Shown: piece after piece, positions 10,496-19,632 of the stretch
Layout of the letters: each line of letters opens with the position of its first letter
Position numbering within the stretch: the first letter of the stretch is position 1
Assembly: GCA_015231885.1 (NCBI GenBank)
Contig: JADGAT010000009.1
Span: 1-64,000 of the forward strand
DNA length: 64,000 nt
DNA from: SAR324 cluster bacterium
GTDB lineage: Bacteria; SAR324; NAC60-12
Reading direction: 5' to 3'
The notes under the pieces: model-generated
What the model was told of the DNA's origin: nothing
Database searches by the model: none
The model's input: only the letters and a program-made list of their open reading frames with translations
Position numbers and translations under genes: made by a program

Positions 10496-11863
10496 TCAAA
10501 GAACCATCGGAGGGTTGGCAAATGTTTTATAGTGCAGTTTTTGCAAATGGCTGCATGCCATCAAAAATCCCACACCCGCTGTGACGAAGCCGGCCAGCAC
10601 ATAACCCAAACCATAATTCCAGTAATTACCCAGAGTCCACCAGGTTGCGGCAATGTTTGTTGCCAGAAAGAGTGCTCCCACCACAAACAGCTCCATACGG
10701 CAGTCAAAATAGGCCAGCACAATGCTGATCAAGGACATGGCCATGTGAAAAAACGCCCCCACACAGGCCAAACGAAAAATGCCCCATTGGCTCCAGTCCA
10801 AATGCAGGACCAGCATGAGCCACGGAGAAATAAATAAAATAACGGAAGTCAGGATGATCTGAAAAATCAGGATGCGGACACTGTTGAACTTCAGTTCCCG
10901 GATAAGATCATTGCGGGCATGCTCCAGGACGAGATAGGCCGCTTTGTTCTCTATTAAAAAGAAATAACGCCGCAGGTCTTCATAAAAGTCGGTTTCAATG
11001 ATCATGACAAAATAGGCCATGGAGGGAATGACGGTCAAATAGGCCACAAACATGGCACCGTCATAGGCTGGGTAAATGCGGAGAGGTCCCAGTACCGAAA
11101 TTCCTTCTCCATACCAAAACAACATTTTATCAGCCCAAATGCCCAGGCTGCCGATGGCTCCTGTCAGGTACAGAATCCAATACTTTTTGTGCGCCTGCAG
11201 CACCAGTTTGCTGGGTCTGAAGGAACCGTCAAATTCGATGGAGATGCTGCTGATCAGAATAAACACAATAAAAGTTAAGCCTAAATTCAATCCGATCAGA
11301 AAGCCGTCCAGCCCTAAATAGCGTCCTCCGACCAATGCCGCGGGAACTGCTGAAAAAAAACCGATCAAAAAAGCCCAGACAATGCGCATGTAAGCTTTCA
11401 GAGTAGAAATATAGACCATCGTCACCCACATGATGTTGGCGAGTACAAACAGGACAAACACCTGGAGGCTTGTCCAGAAAGGAAGCTGCAGAATCCACAA
11501 AACCGGAAATCCAACCAGACAGGCTAAAACCAGGGTCAGCAGCAGTGTCCCCGTAAACATTCCAGCGATTTTTGATTCTTCATGATCGTAGAGGCAGTCC
11601 GATATCTGACGCGTGATGGCCATTTGAGTCCCTCCGGTTAAAATCATGGAACCCGCAAAAGAATAAATGGCCAGTCCCATGAATTGGCTGACGATCACTT
11701 CGGAGGTAAAGACTTTGCCCTGCAGGGTGATCAGGGAAAGAGAAATCACCGAAAACAGCCAGGGGCCTGAAGTCACCAGAGCTGTATAGAAATATGCTGA
11801 TAACGTGGATTGAATGCTGTCTGATTTGATCAGTTTTTTTAAATTAAACGCGATTCCCGCCAT
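10496..11863 (-). CDS. pelG: PelG-like inner-membrane exopolysaccharide transporter
   Basis: 455 residues, a polytopic membrane protein with about a dozen hydrophobic segments. The N-terminus (MAGIAFNLKKLIKSDS) and the tract SAYFYTALVTSGPWLFSVIS are typical of PelG, a MATE/Wzx-like protein that with PelD and PelE moves the Pel polymer (partly deacetylated, GalNAc-rich) over the inner membrane. The length matches the family. Its start overlaps the 3' end of pelF by 20 nt. It is the last gene of the minus-strand pel operon. Confidence 0.93.
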   Translation of the reverse strand: MAGIAFNLKKLIKSDSIQSTLSAYFYTALVTSGPWLFSVISLSLITLQGKVFTSEVIVSQFMGLAIYSFAGSMILTGGTQMAITRQISDCLYDHEESKIAGMFTGTLLLTLVLACLVGFPVLWILQLPFWTSLQVFVLFVLANIMWVTMVYISTLKAYMRIVWAFLIGFFSAVPAALVGGRYLGLDGFLIGLNLGLTFIVFILISSISIEFDGSFRPSKLVLQAHKKYWILYLTGAIGSLGIWADKMLFWYGEGISVLGPLRIYPAYDGAMFVAYLTVIPSMAYFVMIIETDFYEDLRRYFFLIENKAAYLVLEHARNDLIRELKFNSVRILIFQIILTSVILFISPWLMLVLHLDWSQWGIFRLACVGAFFHMAMSLISIVLAYFDCRMELFVVGALFLATNIAATWWTLGNYWNYGLGYVLAGFVTAGVGFLMACSHLQKLHYKTFANPPMVL

Positions 11864-13355
11864 AACAATACTTTTCGTAGAGTGCGTGGTATTTTTGGTA
11901 GAGAATGGGGAGATCGTAGAATTGTTTCATCCGTTCTCTTCCGGCTTCCCCCAGGGTTTTTGCTTTTTCAGGAGATTTCAAAATAGACAGGATGGCCATT
12001 CCTGACTCTTCTGGGTCGGCCAGGCCTGTGACAATGCCTCCGTGTCCCAGGTGTTTGTCATCGGCCATGCCTTCGAGCAGATCACGGCAAGAACCAACGT
12101 CTGTTGCCACAACTGGAATTTCAAGGCATTGCGCTTCCAGAATTACCAAAGGCTGCCCTTCGCTGATGCTGGTCAGGACCAGCACGTCAATTTTGGGATA
12201 ATATTCCATCAGGTTGACATTTCCGGTAAATTGGATGGTGGATTCTAAATTAAAGTTTTTCACCAATTGCACACATTCTTCGTAATAATCCTCTTCTTCT
12301 TCGGTAGGTCCCATAATCCAGACTTCTACGTTTTTGATAACGTTGGCCACCACCCTGACCGCACGAATGAAGGTTTTCACATCCTTAATTGAGACGACTC
12401 GTCCGACAAACCCAATCACAGGATTTTGCTGAGGCTGGCGTGTGAGTGCACTCAGGCGGGCATAATCGACACCATTTGGGATCACCTTCAGTTTGTCCGC
12501 AGGAGCGCCATCTTCCATCTGAAGTCGCTGATTTCCTTCATACAGGGTGATGATTTCTGAGGCATGTTCATAGCAAAAGTAAGCCATTGCCTGGAATGCG
12601 TGAATCCAGATTTGTTTGAAGGTGCTCATCTGTTTTTCGGCCATGAAGCGTTCTCGGGATTTCTCAAAAATCCAGCCTGCTCTGGAAATTTCAATACGAC
12701 GTTCTTTGCTGTAAATTCCATGTTCGGTCACGATCATGGGAGAACCGGTCAGCACTTTGGCTTTGGCAGCGAGCATCCCCGCATAGCCCGTAGACACCGT
12801 GTGGTACATTCGGCAAAGGGGAATTTCCTGTTTCATCACGGAAAAAATCCCGGCATGCAGATAGCGCCAGGTCCAAAAGTAATCCAAAAAAGAAACTTCA
12901 GGGCTACGGAAATGATAGAGTTTGACCAGTAGCTCCCAGTTTTTTTTCGAATACATCATGGATGGAGGCGACCAGTTTTTTTTATTCAGACACTGTGTCA
13001 TCTCTTCAAATTCTTCGCGGGCTGCGTGGGGCGGAGGGGTTTGTTCGCTGACAAACGGCATGGCCGTATGCAGATTCCAAACGGTATTCAGATCTTTCTT
13101 GGACAAATGCTTCTTCCATAGCGGTTTTTTGAAGACGGATTTGTCCTGCAGGTACATGGTATGGATTTTCCGGATATTGGGAGGCAGTTTGAATTTCTGT
13201 TCTCGCTCCTGGCGATCCGGCAAAATAACCAGCAAACTGAAGGTAAAGTCGTCCATGCCCTCGATGATAGAGTGGACCCAGCTGCTCACACCGCCCCGTA
13301 CATAAGGGTAGGTTCCTTCTAAAATAAGACAAATGTCGGCTTCATAAGAGGACAT
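11844..13355 (-). CDS. pelF: PelF-like cytosolic glycosyltransferase
   Basis: 503 residues. The N-terminal PelF signature ADICLILEGTYPYVRGGVSS is followed by a GT4-type C-terminal domain (VIPNGVDYARL, IGFVGRVVSIKDVKTFIRA, then TSISEGQPLVILEAQC with the nucleotide-sugar-binding glutamates). PelF polymerises the Pel chain from UDP-GalNAc/GlcNAc. It lies 4 bp after pelE and overlaps pelG. No truncation is seen. Confidence 0.94.
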   Translation of the reverse strand: MSSYEADICLILEGTYPYVRGGVSSWVHSIIEGMDDFTFSLLVILPDRQEREQKFKLPPNIRKIHTMYLQDKSVFKKPLWKKHLSKKDLNTVWNLHTAMPFVSEQTPPPHAAREEFEEMTQCLNKKNWSPPSMMYSKKNWELLVKLYHFRSPEVSFLDYFWTWRYLHAGIFSVMKQEIPLCRMYHTVSTGYAGMLAAKAKVLTGSPMIVTEHGIYSKERRIEISRAGWIFEKSRERFMAEKQMSTFKQIWIHAFQAMAYFCYEHASEIITLYEGNQRLQMEDGAPADKLKVIPNGVDYARLSALTRQPQQNPVIGFVGRVVSIKDVKTFIRAVRVVANVIKNVEVWIMGPTEEEEDYYEECVQLVKNFNLESTIQFTGNVNLMEYYPKIDVLVLTSISEGQPLVILEAQCLEIPVVATDVGSCRDLLEGMADDKHLGHGGIVTGLADPEESGMAILSILKSPEKAKTLGEAGRERMKQFYDLPILYQKYHALYEKYCYGGNRV

Positions 13356-13359
13356 GATT

Positions 13360-14394
13360 TCACTTTTGCCCAGCGTTTAGCTGGGCTTCCTGATATTGAA
13401 AAACTTCTGATCCAAACGCCCAGTAATTGAAAGGTTCTGCCAGATTGTCCGGCAATTCCATAGAAAATGAGCATTTTCGGGTGAATTTTTCTAATTCCAC
13501 AAAACGCTTTCCTTTGTATAAGGCTTCTGCGTACCAACCTAAAATAGGTATGGATTCGGGATGATATTCCAGCCCTTCACGCAGCACTTCAATGGCACGG
13601 TCAATCTGTCTGCGGCGTACCAGCAGTCGGCCCAGTGCATAGCGCACCTTCTCATGATCAGGCTGAAGGGCGAGGCAGGTTTGATAACAGCCTTCTGTTT
13701 CTTTGAGAAAATATTCCATATCATCACTGGCAGGTAATTCCCAAAAGCAATACTGGTCATAGGCCGAACCCAACTGATACCAGAAATCAGCATCGTTGGA
13801 AGTGTGCCCCACTTTTTCTTTCAGCAGCTGCAGACGTTTTTGAAATAAATCATTGAGTTGTATCAAACCGCTTGCCGCATAGTAGCGCACATCGGAATCA
13901 TTATCTGATAACCCTTCACGCAACACCCTGACAGACAGTTGGCTGGGATGCTGAATCACTTTGTCAATGGCCCGTTGCTTGAGAACACGATCGGAACCTT
14001 TCATGATATCTAGAAACGGTTCTGCCTGCTGCTCATTGTCTTCTGTCCATAGATTTTCTGTCAGTTGAAAACGGACTTTGTCCATTTCGGTGACATGAAT
14101 TGCACCACTGAGCTGGTCGTGATAATGGTCCAGCTGCTTTTGCTGATGGCGAGACAAGATGAGTATGGAAATCGAGGCTCCGAAGGTCGCAAAAGGGCCA
14201 AGAAAGGGAACCAGCATCAGATAATAGCCATAAATGCGTCCCATTCCGGTTTGAGGTGCTTGAAAACGTGTGACCAGTAATCCCAAAACCAGAGGGGCAA
14301 GACAAATAAAAAATATATTCTGAGGTATGGGGAGCCAGAGGAATCCTCCTGCCTGCAAAGCTCCGCTAAAAAAAAGAAGAACCAGGTAACGCAT
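13360..14394 (-). CDS. pelE: PelE-like membrane protein with helical repeats
   Basis: 344 residues. Two or three hydrophobic segments lie in the first 85 residues (LVLLFFSGALQAGGFLWL and LVPFLGPFATFGASISILIL), followed by a soluble helical-repeat region: HEAT-like about 115-185, TPR-like about 200-310 (YQTCLALQPDHEKVRYALG, VLREGLEYHPES). PelE forms the inner-membrane synthase complex with PelD, PelF and PelG. Its start shares one base with the stop of pelD. Confidence 0.88.
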   Translation of the reverse strand: MRYLVLLFFSGALQAGGFLWLPIPQNIFFICLAPLVLGLLVTRFQAPQTGMGRIYGYYLMLVPFLGPFATFGASISILILSRHQQKQLDHYHDQLSGAIHVTEMDKVRFQLTENLWTEDNEQQAEPFLDIMKGSDRVLKQRAIDKVIQHPSQLSVRVLREGLSDNDSDVRYYAASGLIQLNDLFQKRLQLLKEKVGHTSNDADFWYQLGSAYDQYCFWELPASDDMEYFLKETEGCYQTCLALQPDHEKVRYALGRLLVRRRQIDRAIEVLREGLEYHPESIPILGWYAEALYKGKRFVELEKFTRKCSFSMELPDNLAEPFNYWAFGSEVFQYQEAQLNAGQK

Positions 14395-15833
14395 TAATTT
14401 TCACTCAAAAGACGTGCTATCATTTCATCAGTACGATCATGTGCATCCTCTGGGATGATGTCCAAAACAACGGGATGAACAAACAGAGATTGATCCCCTG
14501 TAGAAGCAACCTCCCACGTGAGCAGCAGCAAGTCATCTTCATTTTTGAAGGGTTTGAATTCATAACCGACTATTTCTTTGGTACATCGTTCTATTCCCAT
14601 TTCGACACCTTCCATACTGGTGAAGGGGAGAATCAAACAGAATTGATACTTCTCATCATCTCCTCGAGTGATGATGTCATCCCCGCGTACTTGAAACTCG
14701 ATCACTCGATAGATAATGCGAAGCACCGTGTTTTGTGTCTCCTTGTCCATCAGATCAAAATTCATCACAGAAACAAACAGGACCGATAAATCCAGGTTGT
14801 ATCGTCTGGCCAGACGAATTTCCCGCTGCAGACGTTCTTTGAAATAAAAAAATGTATAGGCACCCGTCTCCTCATCATGAACCTGTGCTTTTTTACTCGC
14901 CCCAAACGATTGAGCATTTTCAAGTGCTTTGATGGTCCAGTCACTCAACATTTGGATGATTTGAAAAGAGGCGGGGTGCAGATTCATGAAAGAGATTTGT
15001 TCAATCTTCAAAATGCCATAGACTTGCTGTTCCTGGGTGATCAACGGTGCTGTGATGATGGAGTCATCAACTCCTTCCAGTTCTCGTTCTGAAAGGATGC
15101 GTTTTTTTTGCTGTACCAGCTTGTAAAGCGGGTGATTTTGGTCATACACGCGAGGATACTGTTCATCATTGTCCCAGTTTTTCTGAGATGCCAGAACCAA
15201 TTGATGATTTTCGTGAATATAAATGGAGCAGGACTCGGCATGCAGATAATCTGTCAATAAACTTGGAATATGTTCAAAAATTTCTTTTACTTCCAAGCTT
15301 CCCAGTTTTTGAGCAGACTCATATAAGGTCAACACCGTATCTTCGCGGGAAACCGCTTTTTTTTCCAATGCCAGGTTGGCTTCAATCAATCGCTGGCGAT
15401 CTCCTTCCATATCGGTAACTCGATTTGTTAAGTCATCTACCGTGGTTTGCGCTTCTGCCAGGCTGGACTGATCTCGATTAAAAAATATTCCAACCAGAAT
15501 TCCCTCCAGTAAAAATAAAAAGGGGGGGGACAATTCGGATGCCAGCTGGATGGCATACAAGTCATGAATCCCCCTCCAGTTGATGGTCACTAATCCTGCT
15601 ATGGAGGCCGTCAACACGGAAATCGAAAATCCATAAACATAACCAAACCCTAAAATTCCAAGCCAGTAGAGATGATCCTTAAATGGAGCGAGACTGAGCT
15701 GGACGGTTTGCAGGTAGAGTTCAAATCCTTCGATAAATAGAAAAAATAAAGGAATCTCCAAAATAAGAACCCTCATTTTGGAAAAATTTTGCCACAGTTT
15801 ATTCATTGATTTTACTGTTAAGTGCCGGGTCAA
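14394..15833 (-). CDS. pelD: PelD-like c-di-GMP receptor (TM, GAF, degenerate GGDEF)
   Basis: 479 residues. Four TM segments lie in about 22-118, then a coiled coil to about 165, a GAF domain about 170-305 and a degenerate GGDEF domain about 320-450. The inhibitory-type site RxxD is kept as R383-G-D-D386, while the position of GGDEF reads GDDEKY, so the domain should bind c-di-GMP without making it. Arg416 sits at about the distance expected for the second c-di-GMP-contacting arginine of PelD; that is an inference. Binding would activate Pel synthesis post-translationally. The operon continues into pelE with a 1-nt overlap. Confidence 0.92.
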   Translation of the reverse strand: MTRHLTVKSMNKLWQNFSKMRVLILEIPLFFLFIEGFELYLQTVQLSLAPFKDHLYWLGILGFGYVYGFSISVLTASIAGLVTINWRGIHDLYAIQLASELSPPFLFLLEGILVGIFFNRDQSSLAEAQTTVDDLTNRVTDMEGDRQRLIEANLALEKKAVSREDTVLTLYESAQKLGSLEVKEIFEHIPSLLTDYLHAESCSIYIHENHQLVLASQKNWDNDEQYPRVYDQNHPLYKLVQQKKRILSERELEGVDDSIITAPLITQEQQVYGILKIEQISFMNLHPASFQIIQMLSDWTIKALENAQSFGASKKAQVHDEETGAYTFFYFKERLQREIRLARRYNLDLSVLFVSVMNFDLMDKETQNTVLRIIYRVIEFQVRGDDIITRGDDEKYQFCLILPFTSMEGVEMGIERCTKEIVGYEFKPFKNEDDLLLLTWEVASTGDQSLFVHPVVLDIIPEDAHDRTDEMIARLLSEN

Positions 15834-15878
15834 AAATGTTCTAACCTCTTATTTGACTGTCATTTAGAAAGCCGATCA

Positions 15879-16886
15879 CTATTGACCAGGAGTATGCCCT
15901 GGTGGGAAGGTGAATTGGCTCAATTCCCTGCTATTGACGTAAGGGATGTAACGTGCCTCCTGTGCCAGCTCGTAAAACTTTTCAATCTTATCAGGATCGG
16001 TCAAATAGTCGATTGCCAAAATGAATTTTTCATCTGCCTGGTAGTCTTTCACCACATCAATCACCAGCTGTTGAGGTGCCAGGTCATTATTGATTTCTTT
16101 TTCTCCAAAAAAGAACGTGTCTTCCAACCCCAGACCGTCAATGGCCGCTAAATAATCAGCACGATGCTGGGGAGAGGCTGAGCGGATAATGAAGGTTCCA
16201 TTTTGAGGTACGACCAGAAAGTTGGTTTGTTGACGCTGCTGACGGGCGTATTGAGTCAACTTGAGAACCAATTCAACCATCCGGTTGGCAGTTACTTCTT
16301 CACTCTCAAGTTCAGGCCCTTCTCCATCAGGGCCAAAATAGTAAAAAGCATCAATGATATCAAGATAGATTCCATCAAATCCAGCATCAATGATACGGTC
16401 CAAGTAACTTTTTTGAATTCCTTCCCGGACACCATACAAAACCGAATGCCATTCGGGCATCCAGTAGCGCACTTTGAAATTATCCGGCCATTTCGGATTG
16501 GCAGCAGCCAAAAAAGCAGGGGCATTTTCATTCGGTTGTCCGTCAGTGATCCAGGAATCCTGCCAATAAAACCGAACTTGCTCTGCTTCGCCAACACTCA
16601 AATAACTCAAAATGACTTTGGAAGACTCTGAACCAGTGCCCTGCCGGATTTGTTGAATTTCTGATGGTGTGATTTCTTTAGCGGCGGTACCGTCATGAGA
16701 ATAATCCATCACAATCAGCTCAACCTGAGATTCTGCCATGAGTTCGATATCATACGAATCGGCGGCTTGCAGCTGATAAGCCCAGCTTTGAAATTTTGGT
16801 TCCCATGATGATGCTTCTTCAGGAACCGTCACACAGGAGATTAACACCAGCCCCATGACAAGGCCGCAAATCAAATCAATCCTCAT
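15879..16886 (-). CDS. GH114 (endo-alpha-1,4-polygalactosaminidase-like) lipoprotein; free-standing PelA hydrolase half
   Basis: 335 residues. Signal peptide with lipobox LISC (Cys18). The rest is a GH114 TIM-barrel: VILSYLSVGEAEQVRFYW (about 91-108), VRYWMPEW (139-146), then GFDGIYLDIIDAFYYF (169-184). In Pseudomonas PelA this fold is the N-terminal glycoside hydrolase domain of a protein that also carries the deacetylase. Here it is a separate lipid-anchored protein that ends cleanly. It overlaps the SUMF1-fold gene by 4 nt and precedes pelD by 45 bp, so it is part of the pel operon. Confidence 0.88.
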   Translation of the reverse strand: MRIDLICGLVMGLVLISCVTVPEEASSWEPKFQSWAYQLQAADSYDIELMAESQVELIVMDYSHDGTAAKEITPSEIQQIRQGTGSESSKVILSYLSVGEAEQVRFYWQDSWITDGQPNENAPAFLAAANPKWPDNFKVRYWMPEWHSVLYGVREGIQKSYLDRIIDAGFDGIYLDIIDAFYYFGPDGEGPELESEEVTANRMVELVLKLTQYARQQRQQTNFLVVPQNGTFIIRSASPQHRADYLAAIDGLGLEDTFFFGEKEINNDLAPQQLVIDVVKDYQADEKFILAIDYLTDPDKIEKFYELAQEARYIPYVNSRELSQFTFPPGHTPGQ

Positions 16887-17746
16887 CTGTTCCTTTCTTT
16901 TTTAGAATAAGACAATGCACAGCGAAATCCCACATCATTGACTGAATACAGGGGTTTTGCATAATCACGGCTGGTGACACTCAAGCGATTGGGACCATCG
17001 TTCCAGCCTCCTCCGCGAATCACCTTACCCGTCCCGGATGCAGGGCCAGGAGGATTTTGTTTTGGAGAAATATTGTAATAATCTGCCGAGTACCAGTCCT
17101 GAACCCATTCCCACACATTTCCCTGTAAATGATAAATCCCCCAGATATTAGGAGCCTTGCTTTTGACAGGATGAGGAGACTGGAGAGAATTGAAATAAAA
17201 CCAGGCAGACCTCTGCAATGATTTTAAAGATTTACTGCGATTGTGGGAGCTGCCCGCACGAGCGGCTCTCTCCCACTCAGCTTCAGTGGGAAGACGCTTG
17301 TTCAAAAATTTGCAGTACGCTTCTGCGGCAAACCATGATACATAGATGACAGGGAATGCCTTTCCCGCAAAATCGGGCCGATTTTCGGGGTTCCAGTGCC
17401 GCAGATAGTTTTGATCGGCTTTTCCTGCTTTTCCACGGGCATTGACAATATTCCATTGAGGAGATGCCTGCACGAATTTTTGAAAATCCCCATTGGACAC
17501 TTCATGGATATCAAAGTAATAGGCATTCAAAAAAACGGAGTGCACTGGAGATTCCGGCATGGGTTTGAACTGTTTTAAAAAATAGGGACTTTTTTCTTTT
17601 GTTAGAGAGGCTGATTGTGATAAATGTCCCATCTGGAACTTTCCTGCCGGAATGAGTACCATATTTTCTAATGCCTGACCATTAAGACGGTCTGCACCTA
17701 CTGACATGACAAGAATAAAGCTGTAAATAACGATTAGGGTTTTCAT
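16883..17746 (-). CDS. Secreted SUMF1/formylglycine-generating-enzyme-fold protein lacking the catalytic cysteine pair
   Basis: 287 residues with an N-terminal signal segment (LIVIYSFILVMSVGA). The SUMF1 fold is clear: MVLIPAGKFQMG, PVIYVSWFAAEAYCKFLN, RLPTEAEWERAARAG, LQGNVWEWVQDW and a final GGGWNDGPNR...VGFRCA. By alignment from memory, the two active-site cysteines of true formylglycine-generating enzymes fall on non-cysteine residues in the GPNRLSVTSR stretch. It is therefore unlikely to activate sulfatases and may be a binding or scaffold protein. It is the first gene of the minus-strand pel operon, 26 bp from the divergent PelA-like gene. SUMF1 proteins are not part of the described pel gene sets known to me. 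Confidence 0.85.
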   Translation of the reverse strand: MKTLIVIYSFILVMSVGADRLNGQALENMVLIPAGKFQMGHLSQSASLTKEKSPYFLKQFKPMPESPVHSVFLNAYYFDIHEVSNGDFQKFVQASPQWNIVNARGKAGKADQNYLRHWNPENRPDFAGKAFPVIYVSWFAAEAYCKFLNKRLPTEAEWERAARAGSSHNRSKSLKSLQRSAWFYFNSLQSPHPVKSKAPNIWGIYHLQGNVWEWVQDWYSADYYNISPKQNPPGPASGTGKVIRGGGWNDGPNRLSVTSRDYAKPLYSVNDVGFRCALSYSKKERNR

Positions 17747-17772
17747 ACTCCAATTTTGAAAGAGAATCGTTC

Positions 17773-19632
17773 ATGAATCAAGTTAAACTGTTGACATTTT
17801 TCCAAATCATTTTTTTAGGGATACCTGGTTATTTTTTGTTGTTTGTTTCCGAATCATCGGCAGACACACCTGTTTTGCGTCATGTCTTGGGCATCTACGA
17901 CAGTGAAGAAAAGCACCCTAAACTGATTCCATTGGGGGAACCTCCTGAAGAAAACAGTTCTATTTATGGAGAACGCAATCCCATTCAAGACAACCTGGCA
18001 GTAGCTCTCAACCACTTGGGCTACATCGTGGAACAGCTGGACATTCACAATGAGCCCTTGCCCAACTCAGAACAGATGCAGCGCTACCGTTTGATCATCA
18101 GCTGGTTTGGAAAAAATTCAGAAATCCCTCAGCCAGAATCATTTGTGCAATGGATCGAAACTCAGGTACAGGCAGAGAAAAAATACCTCATGATGGAATA
18201 CTCCGGAATGGCAGATGATTCTTTACCAGGCATTGTTCAACTGAAAAAACGGCTGTATCGCGCCATTGACATTGATTACGGCAACCTCTACTACGACAAA
18301 AAGAACCGTATCCAGCTGGTGGAAAAAGATTCGGCAATGGTTGAATTTGAACACCGTCTGGCCTATCCCTTTCCCTGGTATGATCAATACACACCCTTGT
18401 CTTCAGATGTCATCAGCTACTTGAAAGTCAAATACCTGCTGCTGGCAGACAGTCAAAGCAGTATGGTCATGATCGGAAAAAAAGGAGGCATGGTCGCACC
18501 CGGATATGCTCTCTATAAAGAAACCGCTCCTCCTTTTCGAAGAAAATGGAGGATTGACCCGTTTCGTTTTTTAAAAACGCTACTGCCTCCCATATCTCCA
18601 GTCCCTGACGTGACGACATCTGAGGGAAAACGACTGTTTTATGCCCACATCGATGGCGATGGGGTTCGGAATCGTTCTGAGGTTAATTTCAAGAAATATT
18701 CTTCTGAAATCATTTTGGAGCATATCCTCCAGAAGTACCCTGATGTTCCCATCGGTATCTCTATGATTGTCGGAGATATTGATCCGAACTGGTGGGGAAG
18801 TCAGCAGCTGATAGACATTGCCCGAAAAATCTATCAGCAGCCTAATGTGGAGGCGGCCACCCACACTTACACTCACCCCTTTCAATGGCAGCGATGGGAT
18901 CGCACTTCAGCCTATGCTCCCCTGGGGACATTTCGCTATGAACGGGAAGTCGATGAGTCCGTTGAATGGATTGCCGATCACCTTCTTCCAGAAAATAAAG
19001 CGGTGAAACTGGTCTACTGGAGCGGGGACACTGTTCCTCCTGAAGAAGCATTGATCCGTACCAGTGAACTGGGTCTGGACAATCTCAATGGTGGTGATTC
19101 CAAATTTGATACTGCCTTTCCTTCCTACACTTCGGTCGCTCCGTTGATGCGTCCTGTCGGAAGAAACTGGCAAATCTTTACCAGTGCTTCCAATGAAAAC
19201 CTGTACACCAAACTATGGACCGACAACTTTCATGGATTTCGCAATGTCATCGAGACTTTCGAAAACACAGAGTCGCCCATCCGATTGGCAGCAGTCAATG
19301 TGTACTATCATTTTTATATTGCTGATAAAATTGCATCCCTGGCTTCTTTAGATCGCGTGTACCAGTGGTGTTTTCAGCACAATTTGAAAATGATTTTTCC
19401 TTCAGAGTACGTTCAGCTGGTGCGCGGGTTTATTGCTGCCCGGATTGTTGAAAAGCAGCCGGGGGTCTACGAAATAAGTGATCGTGGTGCGCTGAATACA
19501 CTGCGGCTGGATCATGGAACGGTGGACTTGGACAAATCTAAGGGAGTGACGGGTGTCCATCGAGTCAATCAAAGTCTATACATTGACCTGGATTCTCAAG
19601 TGACAACACCCCTCATTGTCGTTCTGGAATGA
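17773..19632 (+). CDS. PelA-like periplasmic polysaccharide deacetylase without the hydrolase domain
   Basis: 619 residues with a signal peptide (hydrophobic FFQIIFLGIPGYFLLFV). The middle matches the PelA deacetylase: FYAHIDGDG gives Asp294 and Asp296, and HTYTHPF gives His364 and His368. The spacing is almost that of the four catalytic/metal residues of Pseudomonas PelA. The region before it (about 35-270) matches in position the middle domain of PelA, and the last ~100 residues look beta-rich. The GH114 domain that should precede it is encoded separately at 15879-16886 on the other strand. Likely role: partial deacetylation of Pel in the periplasm, which makes the polymer cationic. Confidence 0.88.
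   Translation: MNQVKLLTFFQIIFLGIPGYFLLFVSESSADTPVLRHVLGIYDSEEKHPKLIPLGEPPEENSSIYGERNPIQDNLAVALNHLGYIVEQLDIHNEPLPNSEQMQRYRLIISWFGKNSEIPQPESFVQWIETQVQAEKKYLMMEYSGMADDSLPGIVQLKKRLYRAIDIDYGNLYYDKKNRIQLVEKDSAMVEFEHRLAYPFPWYDQYTPLSSDVISYLKVKYLLLADSQSSMVMIGKKGGMVAPGYALYKETAPPFRRKWRIDPFRFLKTLLPPISPVPDVTTSEGKRLFYAHIDGDGVRNRSEVNFKKYSSEIILEHILQKYPDVPIGISMIVGDIDPNWWGSQQLIDIARKIYQQPNVEAATHTYTHPFQWQRWDRTSAYAPLGTFRYEREVDESVEWIADHLLPENKAVKLVYWSGDTVPPEEALIRTSELGLDNLNGGDSKFDTAFPSYTSVAPLMRPVGRNWQIFTSASNENLYTKLWTDNFHGFRNVIETFENTESPIRLAAVNVYYHFYIADKIASLASLDRVYQWCFQHNLKMIFPSEYVQLVRGFIAARIVEKQPGVYEISDRGALNTLRLDHGTVDLDKSKGVTGVHRVNQSLYIDLDSQVTTPLIVVLE

Follow-up and report, generated by a model that had tools for sequence, protein, structure and literature searches.

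A SAR324 Pel locus with a stand-alone deacetylase, a GH191-family hydrolase and a putative split PelB encoded in trans

Among the closest described relatives of the locus studied here is the pelABCDEFG operon of Pseudomonas aeruginosa and other Proteobacteria, in which the hydrolase domain of PelA belongs to family GH166. The polymer made by Pel systems is a partially deacetylated alpha-1,4-GalNAc. PelB is an N-terminally anchored TPR scaffold that ends in a 16-stranded barrel (PMC12141448), and the active site of the PaPelA deacetylase is formed by H526, D528, D530, H600, H604, E723, and H761 (PMC12022489). Other arrangements are on record: separate deacetylase and hydrolase genes have been described for Gram-positive Pel clusters (PMC7112168, PMC13254593), and a survey of Pel operons noted both PelB fission and pelA rearrangement (PMC7112194). 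TM1410 is a founding member of the hydrolase family GH191, another member of which (Env-GH191) degrades Pel in vitro; no activity was seen for the T. maritima member (PMC12054363). As far as titles and abstracts tell, none of the literature found on SAR324 and Pel evidently concerns a SAR324 Pel locus.

The DNA analyzed here, referred to as the window, is a 64-kb stretch of the 82-kb contig C241 in a SAR324 cluster genome (G000; 5.13 Mb, 241 contigs, 92.6% complete); this genome and those with which it was compared are fragmented and incomplete. All seven genes of the locus were found at their positions in a check of open reading frames (Table 1), six of them forming a minus-strand operon and one being divergent. 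In the direction of transcription, the operon reads SUMF1-like gene, glycoside hydrolase (GH) lipoprotein gene, pelD, pelE, pelF, and pelG, most neighbors overlapping or nearly abutting. The Pel core set, PelF and PelG with PelD and PelE, is thus complete, and these proteins, along with the deacetylase chemistry of PelA (all catalytic residues), are common to the window and pelABCDEFG. However, the window holds neither a fused PelA (GH166 plus deacetylase) nor pelB and pelC in the operon, and differs further by its separate GH191 hydrolase and an added SUMF1-fold gene. An earlier note on this DNA had called the locus a non-canonical Pel locus, and this is borne out.

Table 1 Features of the Pel locus in the window (positions in the 64-kb stretch)
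Feature	Position	Strand	Evidence
PelG inner-membrane transporter	10496..11863	-	PF16933, 372.3 bits
PelF glycosyltransferase	11844..13355	-	NF038011, 488.7 bits (cut-off 100)
PelE-like inner-membrane protein	13360..14394	-	HEAT and TPR repeats; homologs at the same place in relatives
PelD-like c-di-GMP receptor	14394..15833	-	Membrane helices, GAF, degenerate GGDEF, RxxD
GH191 (TM1410) family glycoside hydrolase lipoprotein, 335 aa	15879..16886	-	TIGR01370, 215.7 bits (cut-off 181.25); lipobox LISC by eye
SUMF1/FGE-fold secreted protein, 287 aa, first operon gene	16883..17746	-	PF03781, 175.6 bits
Divergent gap	17747..17772	.	26 bp between the SUMF1-like and deacetylase start codons; purine-rich, ribosome-binding-like stretches on both strands
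Secreted stand-alone PelA-type (CE21-like) deacetylase, 619 aa	17773..19632	+	PDB 9cgy (PelA), E 1.3e-71

The RxxD motif of PelD aligns with that of canonical PelD and its GGDEF signature is degenerate, a residue pattern as expected for a c-di-GMP receptor, which this protein would then be. For pelD, an ATG that lies in frame 27 nt downstream of the TTG start agrees better with the homologs. PelG is encoded by a single gene in the genome. At the divergence point, the start codons of the SUMF1-like and deacetylase genes lie so close together that their promoters must sit inside the opposite coding regions; a promoter scan there gave no match better than chance.

The separate secreted hydrolase and deacetylase reported in the earlier note were both found, as the lipoprotein of the operon and the product of the divergent gene. 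The latter has a signal peptide, is encoded once in the genome, and matches the solved PelA (9cgy) within PelA residues 423-810 only. At the PaPelA active-site positions it has the full set of residues (H292, D294, D296, H364, H368, E475, and H513), four of which (D294, D296, H364, and H368) had been correctly named before. Its HxDxD and HxxxH motifs, its E and H motifs, and its overall homology to PelA are those of CE21. Its nearest relatives in the named collection are homologs from SAR324 cluster MAGs (78% identity in JANQHV, 64% in JANQJU, and 61% in JADGAV). In an unrooted maximum likelihood tree of 27 deacetylase domains, a branch supported at 100/100 divides all stand-alone deacetylases from those fused within PelA; the stand-alone side takes in two SAR324 types, Azospirillum, a gammaproteobacterial MAG, Rokubacteria, and Omnitrophota, and the window-type deacetylases form one clade within the tree (100/99). 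Since stand-alone forms from several phyla share one side of this branch, the stand-alone state of the PelA deacetylase is, on this phylogeny, old and widespread, the unrooted tree being neutral as to the order of fission or fusion.

The claim of the earlier note that PelA is split into two is not supported. The closest PDB match of the hydrolase is TM1410 (E 4.8e-42), no PelA chain was matched in the PDB at E<=1, and the protein belongs to the same sequence family as the GH191 enzymes TM1410 and Env-GH191 (PMC12054363). Because the family is GH191 and that of PelA is GH166, the hydrolase and deacetylase genes do not make up one PelA cut in two; the place of GH166 is taken by a different galactosaminidase-like family, and the deacetylase comes from an old stand-alone lineage. 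The linkage of the hydrolase to the locus seems to be optional, since another SAR324 genome (G006) has no GH gene at its window-type locus and has GH114-type matches elsewhere. A separate observation concerns the GH191-like hydrolases of SAR324 genome G003 (L104:3459-4754, directly upstream of pelD) and of Cetobacterium (L019:5196-6095), which align to the window hydrolase in two blocks of swapped order. In G003, residues 303-423 align to 50-184 of the window protein (E 1e-30) and residues 136-262 to 203-324 (E 7e-7). These Pel-locus hydrolases thus show an apparent circular permutation of the barrel; a literature search joining GH191 and circular permutation found no paper.

The gene that opens the operon does encode a SUMF1-fold protein, as had been noted before. 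The protein has a signal-peptide-like N-terminus and a basic pI of 9.7. It belongs to the fold family, and when aligned to the solved FGE it was found to lack the CxxxxC motif and, with it, both catalytic cysteines, so that a non-catalytic role as a binding or scaffold accessory is likely. An AlphaFold model built from 4 alignment rows was unusable (pLDDT 42). The SUMF1-like gene adjoins the deacetylase gene in 5/5 close relatives (G000, G001, G003, G005, and G006). The adjacency holds although the surrounding arrangement varies from genome to genome.

Profile searches of the 64-kb window gave no match to the PelB barrel or to PelC, and in this respect the absence noted earlier stands. No real match to PF24604 (PelB barrel) was obtained over 76 genomes; this silence says little, because the profile also misses bona fide PelB porins of SAR324. 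A split-porin profile (A3) matched in nearly all genomes, in all but four true cases only within the TPR segment. The PelC profile, which is weak for this phylum, gave only weak matches, mostly inside large ORFs and none in G000; CsgG-family matches in G000 were rejected as PelC candidates, being two short stretches of one large ORF. No BcsC porin exceeded the cut-off.

Near the deacetylase gene, relatives encode a beta-rich protein of 365-390 aa that carries a signal peptide and is preceded by a large TPR protein whose N-terminus forms an apolar helix. In G003, SUMF1 and one further gene come before this pair, whereas in G005 the pair lies 5.5 kb past the deacetylase; G006 has only a related barrel-like gene, which adjoins SUMF1. 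In G001, the pair shares its short contig with neither the pel genes nor the deacetylase group, which are themselves on separate short contigs, and linkage is therefore not judgeable there. In G000, a pair of this kind is found on contig C178, away from the pel genes, as a 1140-aa TPR protein that overlaps by 4 bp a 331-aa barrel-like protein with a signal peptide; its neighbors are a 440-aa protein of no assigned family and a histidine-kinase-like gene. Over 50 genomes, the barrel-like profile found G000 (1e-108), G001, G003, G005, and G006, with nothing else above noise. These are the same five genomes that have the window-type deacetylase and SUMF1, and the other 45 lack the gene (Fisher p 5e-7, a value that ignores shared ancestry, the five genomes being one family). 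The co-distribution of pair and locus type, itself directly observed, thus partly reflects shared ancestry. Two kinds of Pel locus are present in G006, one of the window type (L028, C35) and one Azospirillum-like (L032, C2: GH, deacetylase, PelB TPR, porin, and PelG), as well as a second, diverged TPR and barrel-like pair on contig C3, so the assignment of the pair is ambiguous in this genome.

Several features fit a reading of the C178 pair as a split PelB. In the Pel operons of other SAR324 genomes and of Azospirillum, PelB is divided between a TPR protein and a separate porin, and the C178 pair combines TPRs and an apolar helix with a beta-rich partner carrying a signal peptide. The barrel-like profile aligned over its full length (269 columns) with the PelB porins that other Pel loci encode as proteins of their own (hhalign score 51.5, E 2.6e-6), against scores of at most 19.8 for 100 column shuffles and 27.9 for 100 block shuffles. 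These porins in turn gave a score of 42.3 (E 5e-5) against the C-termini of PelB, where shuffles reached no more than 19.1. Direct profile comparison of the barrel-like protein with PelB was not significant, and neither PF24604 nor the PDB sequences gave a match; the likeness to PelB is therefore transitive only. The AlphaFold model of the barrel-like protein (2 alignment rows) is beta-rich and unreliable (pLDDT 32). As in the PelBC export complex (PMC12141448), an inner-membrane-anchored TPR scaffold would be followed by an outer-membrane barrel; the pair differs in being two proteins encoded in trans, in lacking a direct sequence match to the PelB barrel, and in that no PelC was found. We conclude with moderate confidence that the pair works like a split PelB, and the statement that PelB is missing, true of the window, is probably untrue of the genome. 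The different export route that the earlier note had proposed is accordingly not supported in G000, whose diverged pair comes close to the pelB/pelC pair elsewhere in the genome that the note had named as speaking against its reading.

In SAR324 genome G046, a diverged stand-alone deacetylase is followed by a TPR protein of 1127 aa (L029:11615-14998) that is beta-rich in its C-terminal part and has F as its last residue. This protein is a possible fused PelB analog; in profile comparisons it matched none of the other barrels.

The window is not the only Gram-negative locus in which GH and deacetylase are encoded by separate genes. The Azospirillum-type pel operon (L021; SAR324 G041, G043, G050, and G006 C2; gammaproteobacterial MAG L087) shares with the window type a stand-alone deacetylase, a separate GH, and, if the C178 pair is a split PelB, a PelB made of a TPR protein and a porin. 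However, its GH resembles that of PelA and all its genes form one operon, whereas the window type has GH191, a putative bare barrel without TPRs, and a putative exporter pair in trans. The Gram-positive pelDEADAFG cluster of Bacillus cereus (PMC7112168, PMC13254593) likewise has a separate deacetylase and hydrolase and no pelB or pelC at the locus, but its host is monoderm and its deacetylase is a membrane-anchored CE26 enzyme, unlike the CE21-like protein with a signal peptide found here. A Fusobacteriota locus on a Cetobacterium somerae plasmid (L019) also has a separate GH, a PelD-like protein, PelE, PelF, and PelG, with no pelB or pelC in the region; it differs by a DUF2194 deacetylase (16% identity to that of the window), an apparently circularly permuted GH, and the lack of a SUMF1 gene. 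Plasmids of Rhodobacterales (Cereibacter, L023:9054-10556; Sulfitobacter, L024:8852-10273) carry an OPX/Wza-type gene with pelF/pelG and a separate GH, with no pelB nearby, and this gene is a candidate for an alternative outer-membrane route for Pel-like polymers. In the pel operon of an Azonexus hydrophilus plasmid, pelB is separated from pelC by a 164-aa ORF (L017:10543-11037) that has a MazE-like and a MazF/PemK-like domain.

We consider it likely that the locus belongs to a Pel system whose PelB is diverged, split in two, and encoded in trans, and which uses GH191 instead of GH166, has no recognizable PelC, and includes a non-catalytic SUMF1-fold accessory. PelF would polymerize a polymer, presumably of the N-acetylgalactosamine type, that the PelD-PelE-PelF-PelG inner-membrane complex would move out, with c-di-GMP bound to PelD as the probable switch. 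In the periplasm, the stand-alone CE21-like deacetylase would strip acetyl groups, and the GH191 lipoprotein would be able to cut the polymer. The inner-membrane-anchored TPR protein and the separate small outer-membrane barrel of C178 would take over the role of the one-protein PelB in bringing the polymer across the periplasm and the outer membrane, the SUMF1-fold protein serving as a putative binding or scaffold accessory that travels with the deacetylase. More tentatively, this could be a diderm Pel machine with an independent part for each of the steps of deacetylation, hydrolysis, periplasmic guidance, and passage through the outer membrane: two separately folded exporter proteins encoded in trans (a TPR bridge anchored in the inner membrane and a bare, TPR-free outer-membrane barrel) would operate with PelC dispensed with or replaced by the SUMF1-fold protein.

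That there is no PelB-type exporter at all, the polymer leaving by another way, such as one of two OPX/Wza-type proteins of the genome, or staying bound to the cell, seems unlikely to us. The window without PelB or PelC, the two PF02563 proteins elsewhere in G000, and the Rhodobacterales plasmids would suit such a scheme; however, the OPX genes of G000 lie on contigs C39 and C54, neither near pel genes, and the TPR and barrel-like pair exists, with a matching distribution and linkage. A little less probable still is that this pair serves a different envelope process and shares the clade and the neighborhood by chance. Such a coincidence would be consistent with the transitive nature of the PelB similarity, with the pair being unlinked in G000 and G001, and with the second diverged pair of G006, but the absence of the pair from all 45 searched genomes without a window-type locus argues against it, as does the closeness of the pair or the barrel to the deacetylase/SUMF1 genes in three genomes in three different arrangements. 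A recent fission of an ordinary fused PelA as the source of both the GH and deacetylase genes would explain why the deacetylase is clearly PelA-like and why the GH gene is in the operon. We rejected it as very improbable on the basis of the deacetylase tree, given the multi-phylum stand-alone side of its 100/100 branch, and the GH191-type hydrolase, with no detectable PelA-chain match in the PDB, also speaks against it.

To the arrangements already described, the split-PelB reading adds a TPR and bare barrel pair encoded in trans, the use of GH191 instead of GH166, and a conserved SUMF1-fold partner. On this reading, a Gram-negative pel locus that lacks pelB and pelC does not by itself imply a missing exporter, as its outer-membrane components can be encoded elsewhere and be too diverged for Pfam to recognize; a recheck with such profiles would be warranted wherever Pel has been reported to lack PelB in other phyla. 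The SUMF1-fold partner, found beside the deacetylase in all the close relatives, is a new candidate Pel component. PelA and PelB would here be naturally dissected into minimal units (barrel, TPR bridge, and deacetylase), which may prove more tractable than their fused counterparts.
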